From assembly GCA_021796225.1 (NCBI GenBank), contig JAJYOL010000002.1, forward strand, positions 1 through 64,000: a stretch of 64,000 nucleotides of DNA, written 5' to 3'. Positions within the stretch are counted from its first letter, which is position 1; the number at the start of each line of letters is the position of its first letter. Below are positions 32,513 to 38,758 of this stretch, one piece after another. Made by a program: the position numbers and the translations under genes. Source of the stretch: Microcaldota archaeon. Lineage in GTDB: Archaea > Micrarchaeota > Micrarchaeia > Micrarchaeales > CABMGC01. The notes below the pieces were generated by a model, which was given only the letters and a program-made list of their open reading frames with translations, searched no databases and had not been told where the DNA came from.

Positions 32513-32523
32513 TTTAAATATAT
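32513..32523 (+). promoter_or_regulatory. TATA box-like element upstream of the RNR gene
   Basis: tttaaatatat; predicted start about 25 nt downstream, near 32545. Confidence 0.5.
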
Positions 32524-32550
32524 TTGTTGCCATATTCCTTAGCGCCTTAC

Positions 32551-32566
32551 ACACTATAAATTGTGT
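32551..32566. promoter_or_regulatory. NrdR box-like operator 1
   Basis: ACACTATAAATTGTGT, 15/16 match to the consensus aCaCwAtATaTwGtgt as I recall it. Confidence 0.7.
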
Positions 32567-32582
32567 CACTTGTTAACCCTTG

Positions 32583-32598
32583 ACACAATATGTTGTAT
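32583..32598. promoter_or_regulatory. NrdR box-like operator 2
   Basis: ACACAATATGTTGTAT, 14/16 match; 32 bp start-to-start from box 1 (16-bp gap). Confidence 0.65.
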
Positions 32599-32619: not shown

Positions 32620-35034
32620 ATGGATCCTGAAAAAAAAATTGACGCTTTTGAGAAGACTGAACAGGCAGCAGAGCAGACTGGACGCATTGTGAAGAGCATC
32701 GAGTTGCCAAAAGAAACGCTGGATTATTTCAACGGTGACGAAATACGCGCACGCGTATTTTACGAAAAATACGCATTGAAGGACGAAGCGGGAAATGCCA
32801 TCGAAAAATTGCCTTCGGAGATGTGGGCCAGAGTGGCAAGGGAGATTGCAAGCGTTGAATCCCCGGAAAAACAGCAGGAATGGGTGGAAAAATTTAAGTG
32901 GCTTCTCGCGGATTTCAGATTCCTCCCGGGAGGCAGAATCATGTTCGGCGCGGGACAGAAGAGAAAAGCCACCCTGCTTAACTGTTACGTAATCCCCATA
33001 AGAGAAGATTCCATTGAAGCAATATTCGACTGGTGCAAAGAAGCCGCAAGAACATACAGCTTCGGAGGGGGAGTGGGCACGGACATATCGGTGCTGAGAC
33101 CGAAGGGCGCACCCGTAAACAATTCCGCAATACATTCTACGGGTTCCACTTCATTCATGAACATATTCAGCGAAACGACGCATACTATAGGGCAGTCGGG
33201 CAGGAGGGGTGCATTGATGATAACTATAAGCGTCGACCACCCGGACATAATAGATTTCATAAACATAAAGAAGGACCTGCGTTCCGTGAGGTATGCAAAC
33301 ATAAGCGTAAGGATAACCGATGAATTTATGCGCGCCGTGGAAGCGGATACGGATTTCACGCTCAGATATGAAAATCCTAAGACGGGCAGGATAGAGCGCG
33401 TTGTCAAGGCAAAAGAGATATGGGACAAGCTTGTAGGATCCGCAAGGGACTGGGCAGAACCGGGAATCATTTTCTGGGACCAGATGAAAAGGTATTCGCC
33501 GAGCGAGTACAACGGTATGGAAATCGTTGGCACGAATCCATGCTCTGAACAGCCATTGCAGAAATATGGAGCATGCGACCTTGGAAATATCAACCTTTCG
33601 AATTTCGTCGAAGGGGCATTTACCGAAAAAGCGGCTCTGGACTGGAACGCACTGGAAAAGACGGCAAGATATGCGGTCAGATTCCTTGACGACGTGCTTG
33701 ATTACAACGACCAGAAGCATCCTCTTCCGGAACAGACGGAAGCCGCAAGAATGAGCAGGAGGATAGGGTTGGGTGTTACAGGCCTTGCCGACATGTTCAT
33801 CAAATTGAAAATCAAGTATGACAGCGACAGGGCGCTGGAATTCGTCGACGAGATGTACAACAGGATAGAACACATAGCATACGACGAAAGCGTGGAGATA
33901 GCGAAGGAAAAAGGCTCGTTCAAGATGTTTGACAAGGAGAAGCACCTTTCGATGCTTTTCGTGAAGACGCTTGCTCAGGAAATGCAGCAGAAGATAGCCG
34001 CATACGGACTGAGGAATGTGGCAATACTGACGGTTCCGCCTGTCGGAAGCGGATCGGTGCTTGCGGGAACGTCAAGCGGAATAGAACCGGTATTCGCCTT
34101 CAGCTACACGAGAAGGTCGGAGTCGCTGAGCAAGGAATTTTTCAAGGTGTATCATCCTCTCGTGCTTGAATACATGAAGATGACGGACTTGAAGGATGAT
34201 GTCGGCCTGCCGGACTTCTTCGTTCCGGCGCACAAGATAAAGCCCGATTTCAGGGTAAAGATGCAGGGAACGATACAGCGCCATGTTGACAGTGCGATAT
34301 CGAGCACGGTAAACCTTGCGGAGAGCACGACTGCAGAACAGGTCGGAGAAATATTCATGCAGGCATGGAAAGCAGGATGCAAAGGCATAACGGTTTACAG
34401 GGAAGGTTCGCGTGAAGGAGTATTGATAACGGATGAAGAAAGGGCAAAGACTGAAAAGAAAGAAGAAGAAAAGGCCGTGCAGACTCAGCAGGCAGTCATT
34501 GAAGCCTGGAAGAGACCGCGCCTCATGACAGGCCAGACGATAAAATTGACCATGCCGCAGGGTGCATTGTACGTTACCGCAGATATCGACGAAAATTCAC
34601 AGGTGCGTGAAGTATTCATAAACCTCGGAAAAACAGGGAGCGATGAGAAGAGCTATTGCGAAGCGATCGGAAGACTCATAAGCAAGTACCTGCAGCTTGG
34701 AGGAGATGTCAAGGAAGTGGTTGAAAGCCTGAAAGGAATAAAATCGAACTCGTCGATTTCCTGGGATCAGGGACTTAAGCTTTACAGCATTCCCGATTCA
34801 ATAGCAAAGGCACTCGAAATACTTTCCGGAACAGCACAGTATGGACCGCAGAATCAAACGCTTACGGGAACGAGAACGTCGATTGCGACTGGCAAGCAGA
34901 TGGCGATAGACAGTCCGGTTTCCGCAATAGGCGGGGATAAGGTTGAAATCTGTGTCTCATGCGGAGAAAAAGGAGTCGTGCATGAAAACGGATGTTATGT
35001 GTGCAAGTTCTGCGGATACACGAAATGCGATTGA
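32620..35034 (+). CDS. nrdJ: Class II (adenosylcobalamin-dependent) ribonucleoside-diphosphate reductase
   Basis: LNCYVIPI, GGGVGTDISVLRP, GTNPCSEQPL..GACDLGNINLS, CKGITVYREGSR, C-terminal CxxCG zinc ribbon; start set at MDPEKKID. Confidence 0.93.
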   Translation: MDPEKKIDAFEKTEQAAEQTGRIVKSIELPKETLDYFNGDEIRARVFYEKYALKDEAGNAIEKLPSEMWARVAREIASVESPEKQQEWVEKFKWLLADFRFLPGGRIMFGAGQKRKATLLNCYVIPIREDSIEAIFDWCKEAARTYSFGGGVGTDISVLRPKGAPVNNSAIHSTGSTSFMNIFSETTHTIGQSGRRGALMITISVDHPDIIDFINIKKDLRSVRYANISVRITDEFMRAVEADTDFTLRYENPKTGRIERVVKAKEIWDKLVGSARDWAEPGIIFWDQMKRYSPSEYNGMEIVGTNPCSEQPLQKYGACDLGNINLSNFVEGAFTEKAALDWNALEKTARYAVRFLDDVLDYNDQKHPLPEQTEAARMSRRIGLGVTGLADMFIKLKIKYDSDRALEFVDEMYNRIEHIAYDESVEIAKEKGSFKMFDKEKHLSMLFVKTLAQEMQQKIAAYGLRNVAILTVPPVGSGSVLAGTSSGIEPVFAFSYTRRSESLSKEFFKVYHPLVLEYMKMTDLKDDVGLPDFFVPAHKIKPDFRVKMQGTIQRHVDSAISSTVNLAESTTAEQVGEIFMQAWKAGCKGITVYREGSREGVLITDEERAKTEKKEEEKAVQTQQAVIEAWKRPRLMTGQTIKLTMPQGALYVTADIDENSQVREVFINLGKTGSDEKSYCEAIGRLISKYLQLGGDVKEVVESLKGIKSNSSISWDQGLKLYSIPDSIAKALEILSGTAQYGPQNQTLTGTRTSIATGKQMAIDSPVSAIGGDKVEICVSCGEKGVVHENGCYVCKFCGYTKCD

Positions 35035-35066: not shown

Positions 35067-35540
35067 ATGAAATGCCCATATTGCAGATCCAAGAATACGG
35101 AAGTAGTAGATTCCAGGGATACTGTAGACGGGGAAGGGATTCGCAGACGCAGGAGATGCATGTCGTGCAAAAAACGCTTCACAACCTACGAACGTGCGGG
35201 ACTTGAAGAGATAACCGTGATAAAGAGGGATGGAACCAGGCAGGCGTTTGACAGGTCCAAAATCCTTAACGGGATCATGAACGCCTGTGAGAAACGGCCG
35301 ATAAGCAGGGAGAGGATGGATGCGCTTGTCGACCGCGTGGAGAGCAAGATACGGATGAGCGGTGCACGTGAGATAGAAAGCAAAAAGATAGGAAACATCG
35401 TCATCAAGGAACTTTTCAAGCTCGATTCTGTGGCATACATAAGGTTTGCAAGCGTTTACAACAGCTTCGAATCCCCTGAAGAATTCAAGAATACCGTTCT
35501 TCTTTTCAAAAACAGGGCGAGCGAAAAAAACAGAAAATAA
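35067..35540 (+). CDS. nrdR: Transcriptional repressor NrdR (zinc ribbon plus ATP cone)
   Basis: MKCPYCRSKNTEVVDSRDTVDGEGIRRRRRCMSCKKRFTTYE..VIKRDGTRQAFDRSKI..VAYIRFASVYNSFESPEEF. Confidence 0.95.
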   Translation: MKCPYCRSKNTEVVDSRDTVDGEGIRRRRRCMSCKKRFTTYERAGLEEITVIKRDGTRQAFDRSKILNGIMNACEKRPISRERMDALVDRVESKIRMSGAREIESKKIGNIVIKELFKLDSVAYIRFASVYNSFESPEEFKNTVLLFKNRASEKNRK

Positions 35541-36057: not shown

Positions 36058-36915
36058 TTATGGTGCCGTGTACCCGTTTTGCCACGATCCCGTGAATGTC
36101 ACGTTTTCCGGAAGTCCGTCGTTTTTGTTTCCGCTGTAGTCGTTTGCATTTCCATTGAGCGGATACCATGCGATGATATGCTGCAGATCTACCGGTACTC
36201 CGCCTATCCCTTCGGTATAAAGATATTTGATATCGTCAGCATCAAGTGAAGTATTATAGATTTGCACATTGGCTATCGAGCCGTTAAACAGCGTCGATCC
36301 GTAATATCCGCCTATCATGAAAATAGTATTTGCACCGAATGTCATCGTGCCCGAGATATTCTCCACGCTGTTTATGTATAATGCTATATTTCCGTTATCG
36401 TATGTACCTACGAGATTGTACCACTGATTATTCTGTAGTGGATGGGCGCTTGCATCGACACGGCCGCAGCAACTTCCTCCGAAATATGCAACATTTGCAC
36501 CGTTGCAACTAAGTCCCAATGCACCTATTCCAGAAATTGCTCCGCAATATCCTCCTGACCCGGCAATTACCGAAGAACCGGTCGCTGAATTGACCTTAAC
36601 CCATGCGGATATGGTAAATTGAGTTAGTGATGAATTAAGCAGAACAGAAGTGGTATTTACATAGCTGCTATGCCCGTTAAACTCTGCAGTATATTTGGGG
36701 ATTTCATTTCCACAATCCCCTACAAGATTGATGAAATCGACAGTGCCGGGACCGTTTGGACGAAAGACGTTGCATGCGCCGGGTTCCGCTTTCGGAGCAA
36801 GAGATGCAGGGTTGAATATCCCGAGAGAATACATGACTCCGAGCACTATGCCTATTACAAGCACGGCCCAGCCGTAAGTCATAAGGTATTCCATTGCGGA
36901 CTGCGCTTTTTTCAT
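36058..36915 (-). CDS. Pilin-like N-terminus plus LamG-like surface protein
   Basis: QSAMEYLMTYGWAVLVIGIVLGVMYSLG; WYNLVGTYDNGNIALYINS; conserved C-terminus. Confidence 0.75.
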   Translation of the reverse strand: MKKAQSAMEYLMTYGWAVLVIGIVLGVMYSLGIFNPASLAPKAEPGACNVFRPNGPGTVDFINLVGDCGNEIPKYTAEFNGHSSYVNTTSVLLNSSLTQFTISAWVKVNSATGSSVIAGSGGYCGAISGIGALGLSCNGANVAYFGGSCCGRVDASAHPLQNNQWYNLVGTYDNGNIALYINSVENISGTMTFGANTIFMIGGYYGSTLFNGSIANVQIYNTSLDADDIKYLYTEGIGGVPVDLQHIIAWYPLNGNANDYSGNKNDGLPENVTFTGSWQNGYTAP

Positions 36916-36930
36916 ATTAAACCATCGAAT

Positions 36931-37818
36931 CTATGGCGGGGTGTATCCGCTTTGCCATGTTCCTGTAAATAATATATTCACTGGCACACCGTTATTATTG
37001 TTTCCGCTGTAGTCGTTCGCATTTCCGTTGAGCGGCCACCAGCCCACAAGATGCTGCAAATCTACTGGAGCACCTCCTATCCCTTCAGTATACAGTGTTT
37101 CGATGTCATTGTTCGAAATAGATGTGTTGTATATCTGTATGTTCGAAATTGAACCGTTCAGCGGATCCGCTCCGCCTATTCCGCTCAGACCCGCTACCCC
37201 GAAACGCATTCCAGATATGTCCATCAGTGAAGTGTTACTGCCACCAGAACCTATGTATTTTCCGTCAAAGAATATTGAAAATTTAGATGTCGCACTGATA
37301 TTTCTTGTAACTACGATATGCTCCCATGTGCCAATAGTTATTGCGTTTGGAGGGGAATATGTAGCTGAAGAAAACGCAGTCGTGAAGCGTATAACAGGAT
37401 TTGAAGTGTAAGAAACTATTTCAAAATCGAAGTCGTTTGTTTCTACGATAGTATACCAATTGGTCAAATCTGCACCAGGTGCAGTTACTATAACCCATGC
37501 AGATATGGTAAAATTGCTTTTGGGCATCAGTGAAACCGAATTAAAAGAGATATACTGTGTCGCTTTTCTGGAAAAAACAGGAACGAATTCCGGCAACTCA
37601 TTGCTGCACGTCCCTTCCAAATTAATGTCATAACTCGTTCCAGGTCCGTTCGGTCTGAATACTTGGCATGAACCAGGGGTCGCCTTTGGCGCGAAATTTG
37701 AAGGACTGAATATTCCGAGAAAATAAAGAACACCGAGGACAACCGCAATGACGAGTATGGCCCAACCATACGTCATAAGGTATTCCATTGCGGACTGCAG
37801 TTTCGATTTCATAGTCAT
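36931..37818 (-). CDS. Pilin-like N-terminus plus LamG-like surface protein
   Basis: KLQSAMEYLMTYGWAILVIAVVLGVLYFLG; WEHIVVTRNISATSKFSIFFDGKYIG; conserved C-terminus. Confidence 0.75.
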   Translation of the reverse strand: MTMKSKLQSAMEYLMTYGWAILVIAVVLGVLYFLGIFSPSNFAPKATPGSCQVFRPNGPGTSYDINLEGTCSNELPEFVPVFSRKATQYISFNSVSLMPKSNFTISAWVIVTAPGADLTNWYTIVETNDFDFEIVSYTSNPVIRFTTAFSSATYSPPNAITIGTWEHIVVTRNISATSKFSIFFDGKYIGSGGSNTSLMDISGMRFGVAGLSGIGGADPLNGSISNIQIYNTSISNNDIETLYTEGIGGAPVDLQHLVGWWPLNGNANDYSGNNNNGVPVNILFTGTWQSGYTPP

Positions 37819-37822
37819 CCCG

Positions 37823-38758
37823 TTATGGCAGTGTATATTCGCTTTGCCACGTGGCAGTGAATATAACGTTTGAAGGCACTCCGTTATTGTTATTACCAGA
37901 ATAATCATTGGCATTACCATTTAATGGATACCATGCTACGAGGTTTTGCAGGCTTACCGGTGCACCTCCTATTCCTTCATTATAAATAGAATTAATCTCA
38001 TTTGCTGTGAGTGACGTGTTGTATATTTGTACGTTGGAGATTAAGCCGTTGAATAGAAGGTCAGTTCCACCTTCTCTACCACTTATGCTCACGAGATTAG
38101 TGCCAGGTACAGTTATAGTACCACCGAAATTGTAACTTCCTACCTGTACCCCGTCAAAATATAATGCTGCGTTTCCAGATGAGCTATTGTATGTCATTGC
38201 CATAAATCCAAAAATACTTGAAGAGACACCAGATACAGTCACAGCGTAATTATATCCTGCAGGAACATTCGATGTTGTCCAATATGTATCTACCCTGCTA
38301 TTTCCGACCGCGATAAAGTTATGAAATCCTGTTAGACCCACTACAATGCAACTTGTACTGGTTGAACATGCAGAAGGTTGATATTCCACCCATGCAGTTA
38401 TTGTCTGAGCATTGATTGGAGAAAGTAGAGAGCTGTGCCCTAGATTTATAGTACTGCTTTGTCCGTTGAAGTATCCGACGTACTGTGGTAATTCGCCACT
38501 GCACGTCCCTTCTAAATTAATGTCGTAACTCGTTCCGGGTCCGTTGGGCCTGAATACTTGACATGAACCCGGCTGTGCCTTAGGTGCAAAATTCGAAGGA
38601 CTGAATATTCCGAGAGAATAAAGAACACCGAGGACAACCGCAATGACGAGTATGGCCCAACCATACGTCATGAGGTATTCCATTGCGCTCTGGAGTTTTG
38701 GATGAAACCTTTTCCCAAAAGGTTTCCGGTGTTCCATTGCGGACTGCAGTCTTGGCAT
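37823..38758 (-). CDS. Pilin-like N-terminus plus LamG-like surface protein
   Basis: LQSAMEHRKPFGKRFHPKLQSAMEYLMTYGWAILVIAVVLGVLYSLG; MAMTYNSSSGNAALYFDGVQVG; conserved C-terminus. Confidence 0.75.
   Translation of the reverse strand: MPRLQSAMEHRKPFGKRFHPKLQSAMEYLMTYGWAILVIAVVLGVLYSLGIFSPSNFAPKAQPGSCQVFRPNGPGTSYDINLEGTCSGELPQYVGYFNGQSSTINLGHSSLLSPINAQTITAWVEYQPSACSTSTSCIVVGLTGFHNFIAVGNSRVDTYWTTSNVPAGYNYAVTVSGVSSSIFGFMAMTYNSSSGNAALYFDGVQVGSYNFGGTITVPGTNLVSISGREGGTDLLFNGLISNVQIYNTSLTANEINSIYNEGIGGAPVSLQNLVAWYPLNGNANDYSGNNNNGVPSNVIFTATWQSEYTLP

Follow-up and report, generated by a model that had tools for sequence, protein, structure and literature searches.

The two near-palindromes upstream of the class II ribonucleotide reductase (RNR) gene of this contig are most probably an NrdR operator of the canonical, dATP-sensing type that sits on an archaeal TATA promoter and would repress the nrdJ-nrdR operon (probability about 0.87). 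A known regulator and its operator are found here in a new domain setting. Across the Micrarchaeota, an archaeal phylum, this predicted canonical regulon of NrdR is found repeatedly on TATA promoters, and it provides a defined test case of a ligand-gated, DNA-bending repressor versus the TBP/TFB machinery. We infer NrdR binding, nucleotide control, repression and the transcription start site from the genomic evidence laid out below.

The nrdJ-nrdR locus and its promoter

The positions of the relevant features are listed in Table 1, where coordinates refer to the window, that is, the whole 64-kb stretch of DNA that was analysed, unless a locus is named.

Table 1. Features of the nrdJ-nrdR locus and apparent fusion ORFs of related genomes
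Feature	Position	Strand	Evidence or remark
Archaeal TATA-like element TTTAAATA	32513..32520	+	Sequence; serves the nrdJ-nrdR operon
NrdR box 1 (putative) ACACTATAAATTGTGT	32551..32566	+	Literature-type PWM, 18.6 bits; C4 and G13 present
Spacer between boxes	32567..32582	.	16 bp; box centres about 3 helical turns apart
NrdR box 2 (putative) ACACAATATGTTGTAT	32583..32598	+	PWM, 17.0 bits; exact fit to search consensus
nrdJ, adenosylcobalamin-dependent class II RNR	32620..35034	+	TIGR02504, PF00317, PF02867, PF12637
nrdR, Zn-ribbon and ATP-cone repressor	35067..35540	+	TIGR00244, PF22811, PF03477
NrdR-NrdD fusion ORF	L123:1546-4173
NrdR-NrdD fusion ORF	L124:1434-4055	-
NrdR-NrdD fusion ORF	L125:1481-3928	-
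NrdR-NrdD fusion ORFs	L126, L127, L128

Both boxes are 16-bp near-palindromes, are spaced 32 bp from start to start and lie between the TATA box and the nrdJ ATG, exactly where a first-pass annotation had reported them. That annotation was also right in taking the ATG at 32620, which is kept in congeners, as the probable start codon, and in recognizing an nrdR directly downstream of nrdJ. The boxes were scored with a position weight matrix (PWM) of hand-chosen weights, without any fitting to these genomes, on the consensus acaCwAtATaTwGtgt, which we take to be the published NrdR-box consensus. The pair reached a score of 35.6, compared with a maximum of 21.9 among 60 Markov shuffles of the window. 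Within the 789-kb assembly, the paired-box pattern with up to three mismatches occurred in one place, the nrdJ promoter, with 0 mismatches; a reversed-pattern control gave 0 matches in the same assembly, and no box pair with a 15-bp gap was found there. As in NrdR operators, each box carries a C and a G, both conserved, at a distance of nine bases, the spacer falls in the range of 14-17 (or 24-27) bp, and the two boxes are located within the promoter of an RNR operon. C4 and G13 are the counterparts of the G-C pairs that are critical in Streptomyces coelicolor (PMC9110341), and spacings of 14-17 bp are bound well by bacterial NrdRs (PMC12051234).

NrdJ matches TIGR02504 with 551.8 bits (cut-off 400) and has a C-terminal TSCPD domain and no ATP-cone. 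NrdR matches TIGR00244 over its full length (residues 1-144) with 186.4 bits, above the cut-off of 124.65, and holds the only match in an ATP-cone search of the assembly, which is 83% complete. As nrdR begins 32 bp beyond nrdJ in the same orientation, the two genes are probably cotranscribed. Solved NrdR chains can be aligned with the window NrdR over its entire length (best E 1.7e-40; 1.3e-37 for the 7p37 chain). The window protein contains the zinc ligands C3, C6, C31 and C34 (two CxxC) and the DNA-contact residues D15, R17, R26-R29 (the RRRR motif) and R37; the roles of the Zn-ribbon and the DNA-contact residues have been described for NrdR (PMC9110341, PMC12176259). F127, V130 and Y131 of the outer dATP site align with F124, V127 and Y128 of the S. 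coelicolor protein. Among 24 Micrarchaeota NrdRs, all of these residues are invariant except D15, which is kept in at least 90% of them. Three tandem paralogous ORFs are located beside nrdR on the minus strand (window 36058-38758); they have an N terminus of the QSAMEYLMTYGWA type in common and resemble one another in their C-terminal parts.

In archaea, transcription generally starts some 25-31 bp downstream of the TATA box, and a start near 32544 (TATA start plus about 31 bp) is therefore predicted for the window promoter. The full TTTAAATA is found 14-25 bp 5' of box 1 in most close relatives, and in most congeners the predicted start would fall inside box 1. In the window, box 1 begins 38 bp past the start of the TATA box, and the boxes therefore extend over the probable start and the early part of the transcript, not over the TBP/TFB contact. 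The first-pass annotation had proposed repression by occlusion of the TBP/TFB start region; this reading is supported, with the refinement that the boxes lie clear of the contact itself. From this geometry, blocked polymerase loading or escape appears more likely than direct exclusion of TBP.

A scan of 83 box-pair promoters, confined beforehand to gaps of 15 or 16 bp, showed 16 bp in 66 and 15 bp in 17 of them. The best TATA-like octamer mostly starts 10-38 bp 5' of box 1, and the first ATG usually lies within 30 bp 3' of box 2. The geometry of the TATA box is loose in this set, as its excess over shuffled sequence is only about twofold in the best bins. The nrdJ start at 32620 is backed by a leader conserved in congeners (GTGGGTG...ATG), and the ATG at 32590, which falls within box 2, was therefore not accepted as the start. 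A sigma-70 promoter was likewise rejected, with matches no commoner than in shuffles.

Co-occurrence of the boxes with NrdR

In a search of 60 relatives, 29 genomes passed the TIGR00244 cut-off, all of them from the window's family, and NrdR was found in 0 of the 23 sampled sister-family genomes. RNR upstream regions were taken from every genome whose RNR had a usable length. A box pair with a 15- or 16-bp gap was present in 27 of the 28 upstream regions from nrdR-bearing genomes, the 28th belonging to an additional RNR copy at the end of a contig, which was left out of the usable promoters. Twenty-six of these pairs beat all 100 shuffles; that of G002 was weaker but in register. Conservation in relatives had been set beforehand as a test of the proposed operator, and it was found in 27/27 usable promoters of nrdR-bearing genomes and in 0/29 upstream regions of genomes without nrdR, none of which beat all their shuffles. 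When the second box was searched for freely over 17-60 bp, the best distance was 31 or 32 bp in all 27 family promoters, and six promoters of nrdR-less members of the same family had no near-gene box above 6.2 bits.

On an aEF-2 tree of 50 relatives, nrdR and the boxes each change four times; the independent contrasts all agree, their number (n=3-4) being too small for significance in a sign test. In many genomes nrdR and the RNR are on different contigs or otherwise unlinked (for example G012, G016, G020, G022, G031, G033, G034 and G035), and the association of boxes and nrdR is therefore one in trans. A sister of the window genome on this tree, G005 of the same genus (82% complete), had no detectable RNR, nrdR or ATP-cone; either they were lost jointly or the assembly lacks this region.

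Across the phylum, nrdR above the TIGR00244 cut-off was detected in 135 of 301 genomes. Box pairs precede class II RNRs, ATP-cone RNRs, class III nrdD and operons in which nrdR comes first (nrdR-nrdJ), in at least 15 families, and the presence of the same motif before non-orthologous RNRs argues for a functional link. One Woesearchaeota genome (L250) also has a box pair beside nrdR. Outside the window's family, 15 of 31 RNR upstream regions from nrdR-bearing genomes scored well (score of at least 16, plausible position, no equal shuffle), and several of the others were truncated, second copies or weak. The consensus of the 83 promoters is dominated by C4 (99%), A6 (98%), T11 (98%) and G13 (100%).

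Near-palindromic, A+T-rich operators are common and the binding protein is predicted from sequence, so that an unrelated archaeal regulator, such as a winged-helix repressor with an operator resembling NrdR boxes, has to be considered. Four genomes (G186, 90% complete; G278, 82%; G202 and G203, 58-59%) even carry boxes while nrdR is absent at a loose threshold, which is likely due to missing assembly. We nevertheless hold such a regulator to be very unlikely: boxes and nrdR occur together in an almost one-to-one manner, both in cis and in trans, also when nrdR-less family members are included, the positions that never vary and the 15/16-bp spacing agree with NrdR (PMC9110341, PMC12051234), and one motif stands before several non-orthologous RNR types.

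The repeats could alternatively act as RNA hairpins or as a riboswitch-like element of the 5' leader, given that the boxes are self-complementary and probably lie within the transcribed leader. Among 166 boxes, however, C4:G13 was never swapped to G:C and positions 5:12 tolerate A:A and T:T, which indicates that sequence is kept rather than pairing. With no family match in Rfam either, this explanation was rejected as the least probable of the alternatives.

Apart from the operator, the survey of relatives revealed that ATP-cone RNRs and NrdR replace each other as a tendency only. A strict either/or was rejected, as some genomes have both (G012, G022, G024, G029, G031, G035) and others neither (G011, G017, G019). 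Several relatives contain stand-alone ATP-cone ORFs of 81-99 aa away from RNR and nrdR (G024:C48:14497-14730, G021:C16:69560-69766, G029:C98, G018:C9, G057:C60 and G058:C1:730790-730987). In G013:C66, G014:C45, G173:C1, G246:C13 and others, RNR domain matches extend in one frame over about 2.5 kb instead of the usual 1.4 kb or so, possibly owing to inteins.

Origin of archaeal NrdR and apparent fusions with NrdD

Bacteria are the usual home of NrdR and its boxes, and NrdR has been called rare in archaea (PMC9110341, PMC12176259). On these grounds, the region might stem from bacterial contamination, or from a recent transfer out of a bacterium that brought its own operator along. We consider this very unlikely, since nrdJ-nrdR is flanked on the same contig by archaeal family B DNA polymerase (PolB) and MCM genes, the TATA box of the promoter is archaeal, nrdR is widespread in the phylum and the archaeal NrdRs form a supported branch. 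In a quick tree of 78 NrdRs, built on a short alignment (157 columns), a single branch (SH-aLRT 97) united all archaeal sequences, from Micrarchaeota, Woesearchaeota and haloarchaeal plasmids, with those of two candidate-phyla bacteria; the 28 remaining bacterial sequences lay outside it. The grouping of the archaeal proteins makes a recent bacterial import of the circuit unlikely. The description of the locus as a bacterial-style circuit on an archaeal promoter is accordingly supported, but not in the sense of a recent import. As the pairing of repressor and site recurs across the phylum, we regard the circuit as long-standing in archaea and not as the curiosity of a single genome. The two bacterial NrdRs inside the archaeal branch belong to Woesebacteria (L215) and Levyibacteriota (L238), a hint of exchange among archaea and bacteria with small genomes.

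In six Micrarchaeota genomes (G293, G294, G284, G274, G272 and G283), NrdR is in one frame with a class III RNR (NrdD). In Pfam searches, each of the six had Zn_ribbon_NrdR and two ATP-cones, and five also had NRDD. The fusions of G293, G294 and G284 span most or all of NrdD and pass the cut-offs of both TIGR00244 and TIGR02487; those of G274, G272 and G283 are interrupted by a stop or by the end of the contig. The fusion of G283, where the NRDD match is on another contig, is the least certain. A PF02867 RNR was undetected in five of the six genomes. The box pair 5' of the fusion is clear in G294 and G272 and weak in G293, G284 and G283. In the NrdR tree, five of the fusions form one clade, with G274 apart, and unfused nrdR-nrdD neighbours in related families suggest a route to the fusion. 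An assembly error is unlikely given the number of genomes. We put at even odds that in some Micrarchaeota NrdR is indeed fused in frame to NrdD, as a single polypeptide that would both make deoxynucleotides and directly repress its own gene, a development of the phylum-wide circuit. If so, these apparent fusions would join a repressor to the enzyme under its control; no published description of an NrdR-NrdD fusion was found.

Predicted repression and comparison with known systems

Upon accumulation of dATP, NrdR tetramers loaded with ATP/dATP would occupy the two boxes, each of them contacted by one Zn-ribbon pair. The bound protein is predicted to bend the DNA and to cover the predicted start and the early transcribed region past the TATA box, which would block RNA polymerase either at loading or initiation or at its escape. 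The nrdJ-nrdR operon, and with it the repressor's own gene, would thereby be shut down. NrdR binding introduces a kink of nearly 90 degrees into each box in S. coelicolor (PMC9110341), and by analogy an equal bend may disturb polymerase loading or escape here. Since the RNR lacks an ATP-cone and NrdR holds the only one detected, dATP feedback would rest on the promoter and not on the enzyme.

A 2025 survey of NrdR boxes covered bacterial genomes only (PMC12051234), and in a search of the openly available literature, no paper on NrdR in Micrarchaeota or DPANN was found. The haloarchaeal plasmid cluster nrdR-nrdBA resembles the window in that an archaeal nrdR adjoins RNR genes, but encodes a class I RNR of bacterial origin (PMC3019208); no convincing canonical box pair was seen upstream of it. 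The NrdR operators of Escherichia coli and Listeria likewise consist of paired 16-bp boxes with a 15-16-bp gap that overlap the promoter (PMC12176259, PMC12051234). They differ in having bacterial promoters and in serving two or three RNR operons per genome, compared with one pair in the entire assembly here, and E. coli, unlike the window genome, is without a class II RNR. The nrdRJ operator of S. coelicolor also has two boxes with a 15-16-bp gap, an operon of nrdR with a class II RNR, the same critical G-C pairs and autoregulation, which is predicted here (PMC9110341). It differs in its bacterial sigma-factor promoter and in its gene order, nrdR-nrdJ as opposed to nrdJ-nrdR in the window, although nrdR comes first in some relatives.
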